From contig CALVNH010000004.1 in the NCBI GenBank assembly GCA_944349635.1, positions 1-64,000 on the forward strand: a DNA stretch of 64,000 nt, read 5' to 3'. A model generated the notes under the pieces. That model worked only from the letters and a program-made list of their open reading frames with translations. It did not search any database and had not been told where the DNA came from. A program made the translations under genes and the position numbers. Positions 4,896 through 12,183 of the stretch are shown here, piece by piece (the stretch's first letter is position 1; every line of letters starts with the position of its first letter). This DNA comes from an uncultured Clostridia bacterium. GTDB taxonomy: Bacteria; Bacillota; Clostridia; Christensenellales; CAG-917.

Positions 4896-4942
4896 CGTGT
4901 CGCGTTTGCAAACGGGACTGCCCGACCGCTTCCGTCGGAAAC

Positions 4943-5428
4943 TCAGTCGTAAGGAATGATTTTCACGTCGAAGGAAGTGAACGTGGTTTCACTCTCGATG
5001 ATGTCGTAAATCTGAGCCGTCTGAGCCGCGGTCATTTCCGCCGCACCGACCACCACGTTTACGCCGGTGTCGCTCATCGTTATGATGGCGTCCTCAAAGC
5101 CCTTCGATTTGATGAGAGCCTCGATTTGCAATTCCTTTTCCATCCTCTCGACGAGGTCGAGTTTCTGCTCTTCCGCGGCTTTTTTGGCTTCGGCGGAACT
5201 GGTCTCAGACGTGATTATGGCGTCGAGATAGAGGAACTCGGATTCACGGGTCGCTTCCCTGTCGTTGCGGTACGACGCAAAGAAAGTCTCCGTCACGTTG
5301 GCTGTATCCGTGGGCGTAGTGCTGCCAAGCCTGTCGTTGAGCGCCCAGTTGAGCACGCCTGTTGCCACAAGCAACACTACCATTACGGACAAAACTATAA
5401 ACTTTTTTGTTCTGGGTTTTATTTTCAT
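4943..5428 (-). CDS. spoIIIAH: Stage III sporulation protein AH
   Basis: SpoIIIAH sits in the mother-cell membrane and joins forespore SpoIIQ across the intermembrane space, forming part of the engulfment feeding channel. The 161-residue protein has one N-terminal membrane segment (about residues 12-30), a Glu/Lys-rich coiled region, and a C-terminal YscJ/FliF-like ring domain (AIITMSDTGVNVVV). The start at 5428 was chosen because AGGAGG lies five bases upstream. The ATG 18 bases earlier overlaps the SpoIIIAG stop and has no site. It is the last gene of the operon and is followed by a strong terminator. Confidence 0.92.
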   Translation of the reverse strand: MKIKPRTKKFIVLSVMVVLLVATGVLNWALNDRLGSTTPTDTANVTETFFASYRNDREATRESEFLYLDAIITSETSSAEAKKAAEEQKLDLVERMEKELQIEALIKSKGFEDAIITMSDTGVNVVVGAAEMTAAQTAQIYDIIESETTFTSFDVKIIPYD

Positions 5429-5442
5429 ACTGTCCTCCTGAC

Positions 5443-5871
5443 TCATTTCATTGTATAAACGTCGACGATTTTCTTGTCCACGCCCATAGCCGTAGTGGTT
5501 GCCGCAATCAGTTTCAGCATGACGGAGATGTCGTCAGCACCCTGCGCGGTCACGAGGATACCCGCTATCTGCCCCTCCTCGTTGCGGGTAATCATGGTTC
5601 TCACCTCGCCTGCTCCTTCGATGCCGGCGAGAATTTCCGACAACTTCTTTTCCTCGTCGTTCATGGCGGAATCGTTTGCCGTAACCGCACTGTCCGACCC
5701 GCCCTTCAAGGCATTCCCCGTTGCCACGGTAGAATATATGAGGAGTGCGACGGCGATTATGAATACGGCGGCGATGAGCTGAATGTTTTTTATTCCGCGC
5801 ACCTTCTGCACAAAGGAATTGGACTTGATTCTGTCCAGCACCCCCTGCTTCCTGTCGTCACGAACTTCCAT
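5443..5871 (-). CDS. spoIIIAG: Stage III sporulation protein AG
   Basis: SpoIIIAG forms a large oligomeric ring in the SpoIIIA-SpoIIQ channel. The 142-residue protein has one membrane segment (about residues 30-50) and a ring-building domain with ILAGIEGAGEVRTMI and GILVTAQGADD, both family hallmarks. Two close starts exist. The one at 5871 is seven bases from GGGAG, while the one at 5877 is only one base away, so 5871 is preferred. The gene overlaps the end of spoIIIAF. Confidence 0.92.
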   Translation of the reverse strand: MEVRDDRKQGVLDRIKSNSFVQKVRGIKNIQLIAAVFIIAVALLIYSTVATGNALKGGSDSAVTANDSAMNDEEKKLSEILAGIEGAGEVRTMITRNEEGQIAGILVTAQGADDISVMLKLIAATTTAMGVDKKIVDVYTMK

Positions 5872-6358
5872 CGGCATTCTCCCTCACGAAAACGGCTTTG
5901 ACCGACACGGCTTCACGCGATACTTTCAACCGTCTGCAAGCCTCCTCCGCCGCCTTCGATATATGTGTATTCTCTTCGTCTTTTTCGAGAACCGACAGAT
6001 ACAAAATCACTTCGGTTTTGTCGATTTTCGACAAAGAACCCTCTTTTACGACCACTTTAACGTCCGATTCGTACCCGAGAGCGGCAAGATACCCTTCCAG
6101 TTCGCATTCCTTTCCCTCCGCATAGGCGGCTGCGGACTTTGCCGCGAAATCCTCGTCGGCACTTATGGTTCCGAAGTCGGGGTTCCAGTCTTTCAACGCG
6201 CCTGCAAGCGCGGGAAGCGGCGACACTATGACAAACACCACCAGAAGCGAGAAAGCTCCCTTGACATACTTTCCGGTCTGCCCTTCCGGAAGTACGGTTT
6301 CAAGAAGAATGCCCAGGCATATCACTCCCACTATGCCCAAAATCCAGGCGCTGAACAT
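5858..6358 (-). CDS. spoIIIAF: Stage III sporulation protein AF
   Basis: This is the membrane protein of the spoIIIA channel operon. The 166 residues contain two N-terminal hydrophobic segments (residues 4-22 and 33-50) and a soluble C-terminal domain similar to SpoIIIAG/AH ring domains. A GGGGGTGTG ribosome site precedes the start. It is placed between spoIIIAE (1-base gap) and spoIIIAG (overlap), as in all spore formers. Confidence 0.9.
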   Translation of the reverse strand: MFSAWILGIVGVICLGILLETVLPEGQTGKYVKGAFSLLVVFVIVSPLPALAGALKDWNPDFGTISADEDFAAKSAAAYAEGKECELEGYLAALGYESDVKVVVKEGSLSKIDKTEVILYLSVLEKDEENTHISKAAEEACRRLKVSREAVSVKAVFVRENADGSS

Positions 6359-6359
6359 C

Positions 6360-7595
6360 TCACACCCCCAGGTTGCAGCTGCCGATGATTAACATCAGCA
6401 GAAGAAAGAACATGAATCCCACCCCCGTGAGCGCGGTGATGAGCAAGGACATATTGTCGGCAAGCGCACCGAGCACAGAGGACGTTCCCGTGTCACCCAC
6501 GGGTTCCACAACGGCGGCGGTGAGGCGCAGTCCCAACATGAATATCACAAGCTGCAGAAGCGGAAACAGAATGATTGCCATAAGCACAATCACGCCCGTG
6601 AGTCCCACGGCATTCTTCACCAGCACAACGGACGCGGACAGCAAATCGAATCCGTCCGACAAATATCCGCCCAGCACAGGCACGTAACTCGACACCGCGA
6701 ATTTTGCCGCGTTGAATCCCAGTCGGTCTATCACACCTCCCGTTATGCCCTGCGCTGTGAGAAACGTGGCGAACAGACCGAACACTATGCCTATGAGCCA
6801 CACCGCACCCGATTTGAAAAGTTTGGTGAGCTTGTCGAGCTTCACGTTTTTTGAGATGTTGCCCACCACGGAAAATACAATGGTAGCTATGAAAGCCGGA
6901 ATTATAACCACTTGTATCAGTTTAATGACGAAGCCCGAAAGCACCGCCATAAACGGTTGGTACACGGCGGCTCCGCTTGCGCCTCCGACGGCGGCAAGCA
7001 AAGTTATAAGCACGGGAAACACCGCTTCCGAAAAAGCGGCAAGAGTATTGACTGTCTCCGTCACCGTCACGATGACCTTGACCGCACCCGTCATAAGAAT
7101 GACAATCACCGCAGAGTAGCACACGACGTGTACCACCTGTGTCGTCGACGTGCCGTTGAACCCCGACGTCATTCCCGACAGCATGTTTTTGAGCAGACAT
7201 ATCACTACAATCGTCACGAATCCGGGCAGGAATCCAAGAAAATATTTGCCGACCACAGAAGCGAATGCGGAAAGAAAGTTTTGAAAAAAGTCTGCGGCTC
7301 CGCTCTGCGTCATGGTTCTGAGAGCCTCTTTGAGGTCTCCAATTCCGACGGCGGCAAGCTGTTCGTCGGACAGCGAATCCAAAAACTCCCGAAAGAGGTC
7401 GACGTCTATGCGCTCAATGGTTCCGTCGACGTTGTCGGACAACTCTTTTTCCACGTCTTCCTGCGCGGAGTTTCCCGCAAAAGCCACTCCGTCCACGCAG
7501 GCGAAAACGGAAATCACCGTTGCCGCAACGGCGAGCAACAACGCGACGACAACCGCCGCACGCCTCTTTTTTTCCGCTCTGCAATTTCTCTTCAT
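6360..7595 (-). CDS. spoIIIAE: Stage III sporulation protein AE
   Basis: SpoIIIAE is the large polytopic membrane component of the mother-cell channel complex. The 411-residue protein starts with a signal-like segment (residues 12-35), then an acidic extracytoplasmic stretch, then about seven membrane helices. The start at 7595 overlaps the spoIIIAD stop in an ATGA, which implies coupled translation; the longer in-frame extension would overlap spoIIIAD coding sequence. Product and position match the conserved operon. Confidence 0.93.
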   Translation of the reverse strand: MKRNCRAEKKRRAAVVVALLLAVAATVISVFACVDGVAFAGNSAQEDVEKELSDNVDGTIERIDVDLFREFLDSLSDEQLAAVGIGDLKEALRTMTQSGAADFFQNFLSAFASVVGKYFLGFLPGFVTIVVICLLKNMLSGMTSGFNGTSTTQVVHVVCYSAVIVILMTGAVKVIVTVTETVNTLAAFSEAVFPVLITLLAAVGGASGAAVYQPFMAVLSGFVIKLIQVVIIPAFIATIVFSVVGNISKNVKLDKLTKLFKSGAVWLIGIVFGLFATFLTAQGITGGVIDRLGFNAAKFAVSSYVPVLGGYLSDGFDLLSASVVLVKNAVGLTGVIVLMAIILFPLLQLVIFMLGLRLTAAVVEPVGDTGTSSVLGALADNMSLLITALTGVGFMFFLLLMLIIGSCNLGV

Positions 7596-7984
7596 ACTAT
7601 GTTCATCAGTCCCGAAATCACATCCACAAGCGCCGTAACGACGGATATGCTCATGAGAAAAATGACTAATTTGCCCCCGAATTGCAGTTTTTGCGCGATT
7701 GAGGCACACCCTGCGTCGGAAGCAATCGACGCGCTGTATTCCGTCAGATAGCCTATTCCGATGATTTTGAGCACGGCGCCGAATACGGCGTCGTCTATAC
7801 CGCTCTTCTCCACCAATCCGTCAAACGCCAGAATGACTTCCTGCAACGCGCCGAGCATTGTGATTATCATCACCACGCCCGTTCCGATGACGGCAAACAC
7901 GGCAAATTCCGGCTTCGCCGTGCGCAAAACCAGAATCACGGTTATCCCGACAAGGGCTATGGCAATCAGTTTGAATATCAGCAT
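7592..7984 (-). CDS. spoIIIAD: Stage III sporulation protein AD
   Basis: This small membrane protein (130 residues, about four helices) belongs to the SpoIIIAC/AD family and forms part of the basal platform of the feeding channel. The phrase GIGYLTEYSASIASDAG is a family marker. It begins two bases after spoIIIAC ends and overlaps spoIIIAE by four bases. Confidence 0.93.
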   Translation of the reverse strand: MLIFKLIAIALVGITVILVLRTAKPEFAVFAVIGTGVVMIITMLGALQEVILAFDGLVEKSGIDDAVFGAVLKIIGIGYLTEYSASIASDAGCASIAQKLQFGGKLVIFLMSISVVTALVDVISGLMNIV

Positions 7985-9630: not shown

Positions 9631-9659
9631 AAGATATGAGATGCGAAAATCTAAAATAC
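9631..9659 (-). promoter_or_regulatory. Possible sigma-E promoter of the spoIIIA operon
   Basis: On the minus strand, GTATTTT (9653-9659) and CATATCTT (9631-9638) are separated by 14 bases. This is the sigma-E layout (consensus near KMATATT and CATACAAT), and sigma-E drives spoIIIA in Bacillus. The match is partial and the -10 is very close to the start codon, so this is a weak call. Confidence 0.3.
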
Positions 9660-9724
9660 AGAATCGCAAAAACCGACAAAATACCATTTGCCTTTGTCTT
9701 GCTTTTTTCTTTGTCCAAAAACCA

Positions 9725-9760
9725 AACAACAAAAAACGCACGGCTTATACACCGTGCGTT
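9725..9760 (-). terminator. Terminator of the radical SAM / peptide cassette
   Basis: A 9-bp stem AACGCACGG / CCGTGCGTT (9735-9760) with an 8-base loop is followed on the minus strand by TTTTTTGTTG. It begins 18 bases after the stop of the 38-residue peptide gene, which marks that small gene as the end of the transcript. Confidence 0.85.
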
Positions 9761-9777
9761 CGGGCGAACAAGTCCTT

Positions 9778-9894
9778 TCAGCTGTTTGTGCGATAAGTAA
9801 TCCCGCAGAAAGCCTGACTCATTTTCGTGCAACAATTCGCCATTGACTGAGAATAGATGTCTTCAAAAAGCATTTCGGGTTTTACGAAACTCAT
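9778..9894 (-). CDS. Candidate RiPP precursor peptide (38 residues, three Cys)
   Basis: The 38-codon reading frame starts MSFVKPEMLFEDIYSQS and ends AFCGITYRTNS, with cysteines at positions 21, 22 and 30. It begins two bases after the stop of the radical SAM gene. A GGAGG lies eight bases before its ATG, inside the last codons of that gene, and a terminator follows 18 bases after its stop. Size, Cys-containing C-terminal half, acidic and aromatic N-terminal half, and placement next to a PqqD/radical SAM/SPASM enzyme are all typical of a ribosomal peptide that is modified after translation. I do not recognise the peptide family. The likely modification (thioether or C-C cross-link) is inferred only from the neighbour. 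Confidence 0.75.
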   Translation of the reverse strand: MSFVKPEMLFEDIYSQSMANCCTKMSQAFCGITYRTNS

Positions 9895-9895
9895 A

Positions 9896-11215
9896 TTAAA
9901 CGCCTCCTTTTTTCATGTTCTTTTTTGATTTTGTCAACATGCATGCCTCGTCATAGCGTTTGAGCGGATCGCCCGTTTCCGTCAACGCATTTCCAGGGCA
10001 ATAGTTGCAATATATTACATCGGGACAATTTTCACATCCCTTAATCATACTGAATTTCATTTCTCTAATTTGTTTCAGTTCTTCTGAATTTGCCCATATA
10101 TCGCTTATGGATGTCTCTCTGATGTTTCCGCACTTTATCAGCAATGAATTGCAGGCAAATACATCGCCGTAAGGATTAATGTTCAAAGAATGCCTCCCTG
10201 CACCGCATATATAGTCGTCATCGTCCAAACGCAAGGCAGAAAACTCGTTTGAGCAATGCACGAACATATGTCTGTTCACCTTTTTCATTATCGACGTATA
10301 CTTATCAACCGTATCCAGTCTGAATTGCGTAGGAGTGATGTCCCCATCGTTTTTGGCACATATCGACATACTGACTTGTATGGTTGTGCCGAGCTCTTCC
10401 GCCAATCGGAGTATGCCCTCTATATCGTCGGCGTTGTAATTCATTACGCACGTTTTAATATTAGTGGGAATTTTCAACAATACACACTTGCGTATAGCGT
10501 CGACGGTTTTTTCGAAAGAGCCTTTGACCTGAGTGAAATAATCGTGTTTTTCGGGAATATGGCTGTATATACTGAAATGTATGCTTTTAGGATAAAAGGA
10601 TTTAAGTTTAATCAAATCACTGTCGGTCAGCGCAATTCCGTTTGTAAAAATGTTTACGGCAAAACCTTTTTTCACCGCATACTCAATTAAATCAAACGCA
10701 TCGGCACGGACAAACAAATCTCCTCCGGTAAAAGTAATGTCGAAAACGTCCATTTCTCTCAACTCGTCCAACAGCATGAAAACCTCTTTGGTCGAAAGTT
10801 CCGGCACATCGCTTGCAACGCAATAGCAATGACGGCATTTCTCATTACATCCGAACGTAAGTTCAATTTGGACGGACAAAAGTTTGCCGTCAACAAATTC
10901 CGAGTGCTTGAACCTTGACTCCAAATCGTTTTTATTCTCGGAAAGGACATTCTCGGATATGAGAATCTCTTTTGTGGAGGAATAATCTACAAATTGTTTT
11001 ATATCATTCAGCAATCCTTCATCTAATCGGTATGTTTCGGAAAGTTCGGCACAACAACTTTCCAACGTGGAAAACTCCTTAAAACAATCGAAAACTTTTC
11101 CCGCACTTTGATTAAAAACATATATCTTCTTCTTTTCGGTATCGTATAATACCGTCTTATCTCCATATAGACGATAAAACACGGAAGCACTCAATTTGTA
11201 TTTTTTTTCTTGCAT
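9896..11215 (-). CDS. PqqD-domain radical SAM/SPASM peptide maturase
   Basis: This 439-residue enzyme is built like RiPP maturases. A PqqD-like peptide-recognition domain covers about residues 1-80. A radical SAM core with C-x3-C-x2-C at 123, 127 and 130 follows, with FTGGDLF as the glycine motif. A C-terminal SPASM domain has eight cysteines (337, 355, 362, 394, 397, 403, 406, 425), enough for two extra iron-sulfur clusters. It probably installs a cross-link in the peptide encoded two bases downstream. The start at 11215 has GGAG seven bases upstream; a TTG start 24 bases earlier is less likely. Codons are AT-richer than in flanking genes, which suggests transfer. The peptide product is unknown. 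Confidence 0.9.
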   Translation of the reverse strand: MQEKKYKLSASVFYRLYGDKTVLYDTEKKKIYVFNQSAGKVFDCFKEFSTLESCCAELSETYRLDEGLLNDIKQFVDYSSTKEILISENVLSENKNDLESRFKHSEFVDGKLLSVQIELTFGCNEKCRHCYCVASDVPELSTKEVFMLLDELREMDVFDITFTGGDLFVRADAFDLIEYAVKKGFAVNIFTNGIALTDSDLIKLKSFYPKSIHFSIYSHIPEKHDYFTQVKGSFEKTVDAIRKCVLLKIPTNIKTCVMNYNADDIEGILRLAEELGTTIQVSMSICAKNDGDITPTQFRLDTVDKYTSIMKKVNRHMFVHCSNEFSALRLDDDDYICGAGRHSLNINPYGDVFACNSLLIKCGNIRETSISDIWANSEELKQIREMKFSMIKGCENCPDVIYCNYCPGNALTETGDPLKRYDEACMLTKSKKNMKKGGV

Positions 11216-11241
11216 AACTTTTCTCCAAAATGGCAACAATT

Positions 11242-11258
11242 AACAAGTTTTCCTTGTT
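11242..11258. promoter_or_regulatory. Operator-like dyad 1 in the XRE / radical SAM divergent region
   Basis: This is a perfect inverted repeat, AACAAG-N5-CTTGTT. It lies just downstream of the predicted start of the radical SAM transcript. Its sister copy is centred 30 bp away (11273-11287), about three helical turns. It is a likely binding site for the divergently encoded XRE repressor. Confidence 0.6.
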
Positions 11259-11267
11259 GTTGACTCA

Positions 11268-11296
11268 ATTTTACCAGTTTTACTTGTAAAATGCAA
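11268..11296 (-). promoter_or_regulatory. Promoter of the radical SAM-peptide operon
   Basis: On the minus strand, TTGCAT (11291-11296) and TAAAAT (11268-11273) are separated by 17 bp. The second operator-like dyad fills the spacer, so repressor binding there would block RNA polymerase. Confidence 0.7.
11273..11287. promoter_or_regulatory. Operator-like dyad 2
   Basis: ACCAG-N5-CTTGT is a one-mismatch dyad, and 12 of 15 bases match dyad 1. It occupies the -35/-10 spacer of the leftward promoter and lies 33 bases before the XRE start codon, so both divergent genes could be controlled. Confidence 0.55.
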
Positions 11297-11320
11297 GCAA
11301 TAAATTTATAGGAATCCTGA

Positions 11321-11530
11321 ATGAGTATTTTTGCGCAACAATTAAAAGAAGCGATGAGAATCAACCGATACAGTCAACGTTTTGTTGCCGAAAAACTGCA
11401 TACCACTCAGCAGACGGTATCGAACTGGGCCAACGGAATCTACGAACCGTCACTTGAACAGCTGATATTGTTATGCGAAGTTCTGGATGTTACTCCCAAT
11501 TTCCTTTTGGGATATTCCGATTACGAATAA
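11321..11530 (+). CDS. XRE-family helix-turn-helix repressor
   Basis: This 69-residue protein is one HTH domain of the lambda-repressor/Cro type. The helix-turn-helix reads FVAEKLHTTQQTVSNWANG (about residues 21-39), and the C-terminal half resembles the standard HTH_3 ending (LCEVLDVTPNFLLGYSDYE). There is no sensor domain. It is divergent from the radical SAM gene, and paired dyads lie between them, so it is probably a local repressor of the peptide operon and of itself. The ribosome site is weak (AGGA). Confidence 0.88.
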   Translation: MSIFAQQLKEAMRINRYSQRFVAEKLHTTQQTVSNWANGIYEPSLEQLILLCEVLDVTPNFLLGYSDYE

Positions 11531-11562
11531 ACATAATTGACAAGTCCTGATTCAAATAATCA

Positions 11563-11590
11563 CAAAACCCTGCCGTTTGGCAGGGTTTTG
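11563..11590. terminator. Bidirectional terminator between the XRE gene and efp
   Basis: A 12-bp perfect stem (CAAAACCCTGCC / GGCAGGGTTTTG) with loop GTTT has T-rich flanks on both strands. It closes the XRE transcript from the left and the rny-M24-efp transcript from the right, and it marks the right edge of the inserted cassette. Confidence 0.85.
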
Positions 11591-11619
11591 ATTATCTTGA
11601 CTGTGCTGATTGCTGTTTG

Positions 11620-12183
11620 TCAGACGCGGGACATATACTCGCCCGTGCGGGTGTCTATGCGGATTGTGTCGCCCTCGTTGACGAACATCGGAACCTGCAG
11701 GGAGTATCCCGTTTCCACGGTGGCGGGTTTGGTGGCGTTGGTGGCGGTGTTGCCGACGACTGCGGGTTCGCAGACGGTGACGAGCAATTCCACGAAGTTC
11801 GGGGGGTCGACGGAGAACGGTGCACCCTGGAAGAACTTCATGGTGACGTTCATGTTCTCTTTGACGAAATTGAGCGCGTCTTCCACCTGGCTGAAATTCA
11901 GAGGTATCTGTTCGTACGTTTCGGAGTCCATAAAATAATAGAACTCACCGTCGCTGTACAGATATTCCATATTTTTGGTTTCGATATGAGCGAGGTCGAA
12001 TTTTTCGGTGGGATTGAAAGTCTTTTCGAGCACGCTTCCGGTGACGACGTTCTTCATCTTTGTGCGAACGAACGCCGCGCCCTTGCCGGGCTTGACGTGC
12101 TGGAAATCGACGACGGTCATGATATTGTTCTCATAGAGGAACGTAACGCCCTTTCTGAGGTCTCCTGCCATTATTTGTGCCAT
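11620..12183 (-). CDS. efp: Elongation factor P
   Basis: EF-P binds between the P and E sites of stalled ribosomes and relieves pausing at polyproline runs. The 187-residue, three-domain protein has the usual length. The tip loop reads [12 protein letters not shown], with the modifiable lysine at residue 34. Most Firmicutes modify this residue with 5-aminopentanol or leave it bare; no modification gene is visible nearby. It follows the M24 peptidase by 26 bases. In Bacillus the next genes are yqhV and spoIIIAA; here the peptide cassette intervenes. Confidence 0.96.

Follow-up and report, generated by a model that had tools for sequence, protein, structure and literature searches.

What is made by a small, low-GC cassette in an uncultured Clostridia bacterium, and does the cassette belong to a known family? 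The locus lies in a 64,000-nucleotide stretch of DNA (contig CALVNH010000004.1), which was analyzed as a whole and is called the window here. An earlier note on this DNA read the locus as three genes, encoding an XRE repressor, a PqqD-radical SAM-SPASM enzyme, and a short Cys peptide. The open reading frames and Pfam domains confirmed this content. The cassette spans 9734-11590 of the window, holds three genes, and carries a terminator at each end:

9734-9761, minus strand: intrinsic terminator 3' of the peptide gene, RNA fold z -3.05
9778-9894, minus strand: putative RiPP precursor peptide, 38 aa, with a core motif shared by 6 of 8 loci
9896-11215, minus strand: maturase, 439 aa, RRE(PqqD)-radical SAM-SPASM, ATG start, assigned from domains, alignment, and predicted fold
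11243-11257, minus strand: putative XRE operator on the maturase side, ACAAGGAAAACTTGT, a dyad
11273-11287, minus strand: putative XRE operator on the xre side, ACAAGTAAAACTGGT, a dyad
11321-11530, plus strand: XRE/Cro-type HTH regulator, 69 aa, HTH only (Pfam HTH_3)
11563-11590, no strand assigned: bidirectional intrinsic terminator between xre and efp, from the terminator scan

The terminator that had been noted behind the peptide gene was recovered at 9761-9734 on the minus strand, with 11 pairs and a T-run. Positions 9650-11640 contain 6 terminator-like sites compared with 1.8 in shuffles, so individual sites need not all be real.

Does the small peptide gene belong to the enzyme gene? A scan of genome contigs with the maturase alignment returned 17 loci, while a scan with the single maturase protein found nothing in these contigs. 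Eight distinct loci carry the maturase: the window, L005 (the same as L007), L006 (the same as L012), L008, L009, L010, L011, and L013. L007 and L012 contain L005 and L006 and were counted once, and the L011 contig begins inside the maturase gene. The seven other maturases are 41-51% identical to that of the window. Left out of the family count were L014 (34%), L015, L017-L021 and L023 (23-29%), L022 (38% over 50 residues), and L016, a fragment from the bin of L011 with 91 of 96 overlapping residues equal. The earlier note had proposed that co-occurrence of enzyme and peptide in other genomes would support its reading, and that maturases never adjoining this peptide, or a broken peptide frame in relatives, would speak against it. 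A small Cys ORF was found behind the maturase in all eight loci, six of which share the same core with an intact frame, and neither adverse outcome occurred. The ORF is preceded by a Shine-Dalgarno sequence, GGAGG in seven loci and GGGGG in L013. In the window this is AAAGGAGG, located within the last maturase codons; a GGAGG of its own had been noted for the peptide gene. The maturase and peptide genes overlap by one base in L007 and L009 (TAATG) and are otherwise separated by 1, 4, 5, 18, 41, or 57 bases. The peptide gene had been described as lying at 9778-9894, two bases after the maturase stop; the coordinates stand, but the spacing is one base (TAA-T-ATG). The placement of the peptide start at the maturase stop, with an overlap in L007 and L009, suggests coupled translation.

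The window peptide appears to consist of a leader (about residues 1-20) and a core (about residues 21-38) with the arrangement C22-x7-C30-G-I-T-Y-R, and it ends in YRTNS. The leader pattern P-x-[ML]-L-x4-Y-x2-S is common to six of the eight peptides, and the exact core C-x7-C-G-[IV]-x-[YH]-R occurs in six of the eight loci (window, L005, L006, L008, L009, and L011). In other words, an adjacent precursor with a conserved leader is present in 6/8, and the other two loci carry a different small Cys peptide. The residues invariant in the six core peptides are M1, F3, P6, L9, Y14, S17, C22, C30, G31, and R35 (window numbering). Cys residues had been placed at positions 21, 22, and 30 of the window peptide, which is correct, but the expectation of conserved Cys positions across loci holds for Cys22 and Cys30 and not for Cys21. 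The first Cys belongs to a CC pair in the window and to CxC in L005, L006, L008, and L009, and is absent in L011. Because Cys21 varies between loci, the chemistry is best rested on Cys22 and Cys30.

The core motif C-x7-CG[IV]x[YH]R is specific, as a six-frame search of 300,751 bases (the window and 41 partly overlapping loci) returned only copies of these peptide ORFs. The peptide profile, searched against 60 relatives, gave a strong match in the own genome (2.9e-23). Matches in four other relatives (E 0.0046-0.0087) were judged chance, with neither CX3CX2C nor the full core seen there; one of the four, L026, has a CGTAYR string within a frame that by eye resembles elongation factor G. The L010 peptide downstream of a 50% identical maturase has 47 aa (7336-7479) and a CNC but not the Cys-Gly motif, and may represent another type of core used by this enzyme family. 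The L013 peptide has 41 aa and two Cys, and likewise lacks the CG[IV]x[YH]R core.

Further evidence on the peptide comes from the near pair L007 and L009, whose maturases have an identity of 88.5% at the DNA level and 90.0% at the protein level. In the leader, 6 of 57 nucleotides changed and 6 codons differ, 5 silently and 1 by replacement. In the core, 19 of 51 nucleotides changed, compared with a maximum of 14 in 422 maturase windows of 51 nucleotides, and all 10 differing codons are replacements with none silent. The codon changes of the core differ from those of the leader (Fisher p 0.0014) and from those of the maturase with its 89 silent and 44 replacement changes (p 3e-5), in a test that covers one pair of loci with a leader/core border set after viewing the alignment. 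The Cys, CG, YR, and GN of the core were unchanged. This pattern fits a recognized leader, chemically required residues, and a core that would be driven by a partner. A varied core suggests a changing partner and hence an antagonistic (bacteriocin-like) or signal peptide, a role that we favor by a modest margin.

What kind of enzyme is the maturase? The ORF listing gives a TTG start at 11239 (447 aa). This start is probably wrong, and the ATG at 11215 (439 aa) is preferred because a GGAG precedes it and homologues align from about there. PqqD, Radical_SAM, and SPASM of Pfam each scored over their cut-offs (for PqqD, PF05402, 30.3 bits versus 23.4), and eight Cys were counted in the SPASM part, in agreement with the enzyme layout of the earlier note. 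The putative RRE is also seen in an AlphaFold2 model, in which residues 1-80 form strands and then helices with pLDDT of 75-91 per block. An alignment of eight rows contains the radical SAM CX3CX2C and the SPASM Cys, and C123, C127, C130, C337, C355, C397, C403, C406, and C425 are invariant in all eight. Seven canonical SPASM Cys are kept, six of them invariant and one (C394) displaced by one residue in L010. L006, L011, and L013 lack the eighth Cys, C362 (439-aa numbering). The AlphaFold2 model, built from the eight rows, has a mean pLDDT of 79.8 and a pTM of 0.71. Its best fold matches are 5why, SkfB, SuiB, and TigE, with TM of 0.52-0.60 and rmsd of 15-20 A over the whole chain, values at which they show a common layout only. 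The title of 5why, which we take to be CteB, refers to thioether bond formation in sactipeptides. Among the best 25 of 59 NCBIfam families with E up to 1, none reaches its cut-off for the maturase; the scores in bits, all falling well short, include NirJ2 131.6, AhbD 126.3, mycofactocin 122, WgkB 112.1, and StsB 89.2.

An XRE gene encoding 66-76 aa is divergent from the maturase in all five loci that have a core peptide and readable upstream DNA (window, L005/L007, L006/L012, L008, and L009). The HTH was assigned by Pfam for the window and L008, and the three other genes were identified by eye. Two related dyads lie 29-30 bp apart in each of the five loci. Their letters are locus-specific, except in the near pair L007/L009, and the 15-mer dyad pattern of the window occurs twice in its 1.35-Mb assembly, both times at this locus. 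The paired-dyad score at the best word length, chosen among 15, 16, and 17, was matched by 1, 0, 0, 0, and 0 of 200 dinucleotide shuffles (window, L006, L008, L009, and L007), and at the other two lengths by 2 to 119 of 200. In a palindrome test limited to the spacer, 336, 201, and 301 of 5000 shuffles did as well for the window, L006, and L008, a weak result, compared with 26 and 21 of 5000 for L009 and L007; of the two tests, the paired one is the stronger. In four loci the 17-bp spacer of a putative promoter, with a match of 11 (L006), 10 (L007), 12 (L008), and 11 (L009) of 12, is occupied by the downstream dyad. The match before the window maturase is weak (8 of 12), and a stricter promoter scan reported none there. 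Read from sequence, the XRE gene, the dyad pair, the maturase, and the adjoining peptide recur as a single unit. Three other loci count against the generality of the divergent XRE arrangement. L016, from the bin of L011, covers the beginning of a sister gene, with a Sel1-repeat gene (4900-5634) upstream of it and no XRE seen; L013 has a Sel1-repeat gene upstream (93-1412) and no XRE seen beside the maturase; and L010 has an HTH_3 gene ~1 kb upstream of the maturase. A gene of ~243 aa stands between xre and the maturase in L007 (3821-4552) and L009 (358-1164), and its L009 copy had no Pfam or PADLOC match.

The distribution of the cassette is sparse and patchy across Clostridia, Bacillota, and Endomicrobium bins. 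Among the other carriers, L007, L008, and L009 come from uncultured Clostridia 'Lapin' bins, and the bins of L010, L011, L012, and L013 are labeled Ruminococcus, Endomicrobium, Bacillota, and Clostridiaceae, respectively. Rabbit or termite hosts are a guess from the isolate names. Maturase searches in overlapping genome samples found matches in 3 of 100 relatives at 1e-30 (the own genome and two at 31-32%) and, at 1e-45, in 2 of 391 genomes of the class (own and L004, 39% over 315 residues), 3 of 396 of the order (own, G634, and G608), and 1 of 398 of the phylum (own). A three-row alignment at 1e-70 matched only G634 itself among 251 genomes of its family. Beside the more distant maturases of L002, L004, and L014 (32-39% identity), the peptide candidate is a different one or there is none of the core kind, and the core expression had no match at these loci. 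At L002 (1034-1156), in the same-family genome G012, a different 40-aa Cys peptide precedes another radical SAM/SPASM-type gene. At L014 (4781-7362), a 405-aa protein ending GCGIGGSFCGCGSGR lies directly ahead of the 34%-identical maturase, and its tail might be the substrate.

The cassette looks inserted between efp and spoIIIAA. GC is 0.34-0.42 inside it and 0.48-0.62 outside. The efp-spoIIIAA gap is ~2.0 kb in the window, ~0.3 kb in the same-genus genome G006, ~0.7 kb in G001 without matches to cassette genes, and ~1.3 kb in G008, where another gene, a double-HTH one, is located. The DNA compared from the other same-genus genomes did not show both efp and spoIIIAA, except in G003 by no more than a 31-nt match. 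Gaps of unequal length and content suggest that this junction takes different inserts. Beside efp in two same-genus genomes (L036 181-867 and L037 391-1077), a 147-aa double-HTH gene is divergent from a 44-aa ORF beginning MSVEELTLYLKILL, and a similar 44-aa ORF was seen by eye at L034 (3391-3525). The pair in L037 sits between efp and spoIIIAA, where the junction looks like an insertion spot. RhuM (L012 8087-9007), Fic/BRO-N (L009 4643-5500), and 8xMP (L011 1439-2164) lie near three cassettes and may mark variable regions. No relative was found in viral contigs or, at E 1e-30, in phage records, and the two plasmid relatives are 26-34% identical, giving no sign of phage or plasmid carriage. 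Against an anti-phage library, the only similarities were of a general radical-SAM (viperin) or HTH kind.

Within the conserved unit, none of the genes was recognized as encoding an exporter, a leader protease, or an immunity protein. A search for Peptidase_C39 gave no match in the own genome (89% complete), while its control was positive in 8 of 14 known genomes. Neighbor proteins were scanned with Pfam in sets of 3, 9, and 10 (two of the last being HTH genes), covering part of the frames, on contigs several of which are short. L007 encodes, ~1.1 kb beyond xre, a protein that matches ABC_tran twice and also ABC_tran_Xtn, which we take to be ABC-F-like and not an exporter. BioY occurs in L007 and L009 and VanY in L010, and none of these three recurs across all loci. 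A metK (SAM synthetase) gene and BioY lie 3' of the peptide gene in L009 (2709-4518) and L007 (~6084-7891), with metK assigned by Pfam in L009 and by eye in L007, and BioY by Pfam in both.

How might the cassette work? The RiPP reading of the earlier note gains support from the co-occurrence of maturase and peptide, and the pair is very probably a RiPP precursor with its maturase; cross-linking of the peptide is our inference, as it was in that note. The fuller account, a self-contained, horizontally acquired cassette with a cross-linking maturase and XRE control, is held with good confidence. XRE dimers on the two dyads would hold the divergent promoters low, and relief of XRE would allow the maturase and peptide to be made together. 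The N-terminal RRE would grip the conserved leader, and a 5'-deoxyadenosyl radical would abstract a hydrogen from a residue of the core, which the SPASM clusters would help to join to a Cys sulfur. In the product, Cys22/Cys30 would be the basis of one or two thioether rings, with acceptors probably within the conserved C-terminal part G-I/V-x-Y/H-R. Host proteins encoded elsewhere would remove the leader and export the peptide. A thioether is likely, not necessary, for a Cys peptide, and we lean slightly toward it as the linkage.

One alternative is that the bond formed by the RiPP enzyme is of carbon-carbon or Arg/Tyr type, with the Cys either remaining free or serving as metal or disulfide ligands. 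All six core peptides have Arg35, preceded at position 34 by Y or H, and an arginine-tyrosine crosslink has been reported in the streptococcal RRR family (PMC13361665). However, Cys22 and Cys30, at a fixed distance from each other, are just as invariant. The fold does not decide, because the matches include thioether enzymes as well as SuiB, a C-C enzyme. We regard this alternative as unlikely, though less so than the next, in which the peptide stays inside the cell as a cofactor precursor (mycofactocin- or PQQ-like) or as feedback on XRE. That reading would explain a conserved unit lacking an exporter, the mycofactocin maturase model gave the third-best score among the best 25 of 59 NCBIfam families, and Cys-Gly-Ile/Val-x-Tyr presumably resembles the end of MftA. 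Yet the mycofactocin score is far below its cut-off of 265, the Tyr is not C-terminal, and a fast-changing core, seen in the one pair L007/L009, is unexpected for a cofactor. An intracellular peptide is thus improbable.

Could the small ORF be there by chance, with the enzyme working on another substrate? The distant maturases at L002, L004, and L014, which lack this core peptide, would allow it, but the core, Shine-Dalgarno sequence, and position recur in six loci of different bins, and the codon pattern of the peptide in L007/L009 is sharply unlike that of the maturase. A chance ORF is therefore scarcely credible. The loci are best read as a new family of RRE-dependent radical-SAM RiPPs, in both precursor and maturase, with a Cys-thioether as the most likely linkage.

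The nearest known systems are the sactipeptide/ranthipeptide systems (SkfB, CteB, and StsB), which likewise carry RRE, radical SAM, and SPASM on a single chain, next to a Cys peptide; the top structural matches to the maturase, 5why and SkfB 6efn, are of this kind. However, the StsB model, one of the best 25 of 59, aligns to residues 32-411 far under its cut-off of 625, and the conserved unit here has no exporter gene. The earlier remark that the peptide does not look like SCIFF stands, since SCIFF has six Cys in about 45 residues, compared with three in 38 here, two of them conserved; none of the six core peptides matched an NCBIfam model. Mycofactocin (MftA/MftC) has a C-terminal Val-Tyr and a separate MftB, whereas the window peptide has an internal Tyr and the RRE is fused to the enzyme. 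Streptococcal RaS-RiPPs are also small operons of regulator, precursor, and radical-SAM enzyme; they are Rgg controlled, with 16 named subfamilies including CGx and CGG, and the CGx, CGG, and VSA subfamilies are reported to have rgg but no identified shp (PMC13361665). Unlike Rgg-type regulators, the window regulator has 69 aa and matches HTH families only, without a TPR part, and the unit differs from the RaS-RiPP operons in its dyad pair and in having no transporter gene. Nothing in the open-access literature compared, including the accessible parts of PMC8326336, PMC13361665, and PMC7470986, pointed to the peptide family of the window. Within these searches, both the precursor and the maturase subfamily of this compact putative RiPP family are new, with streptococcal CGx/CGG, known by name only, as possible relatives.

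The same gene set and peptide motif in several bacteria look like a real, so far undescribed family of modified peptides. As a long shot, the cassette could be a RiPP module that is mobile, lacks an exporter, and is switched by two operators in a phage-like manner. Its fast-changing peptide, once matured and carrying an unprecedented cross-link in the CG[IV]x[YH]R core, would be the signal that lifts its own XRE repressor; core and repressor would then be strain-specific pairs. The family would add a precursor beyond any NCBIfam model reached here, and its minimal three-gene layout could be expressed whole. The fixed core predicts the position of the bond, and the natural core variants would show how much the enzyme tolerates. 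With a simple HTH regulator and two operator-like dyads, the trigger of such a locus would be directly testable.
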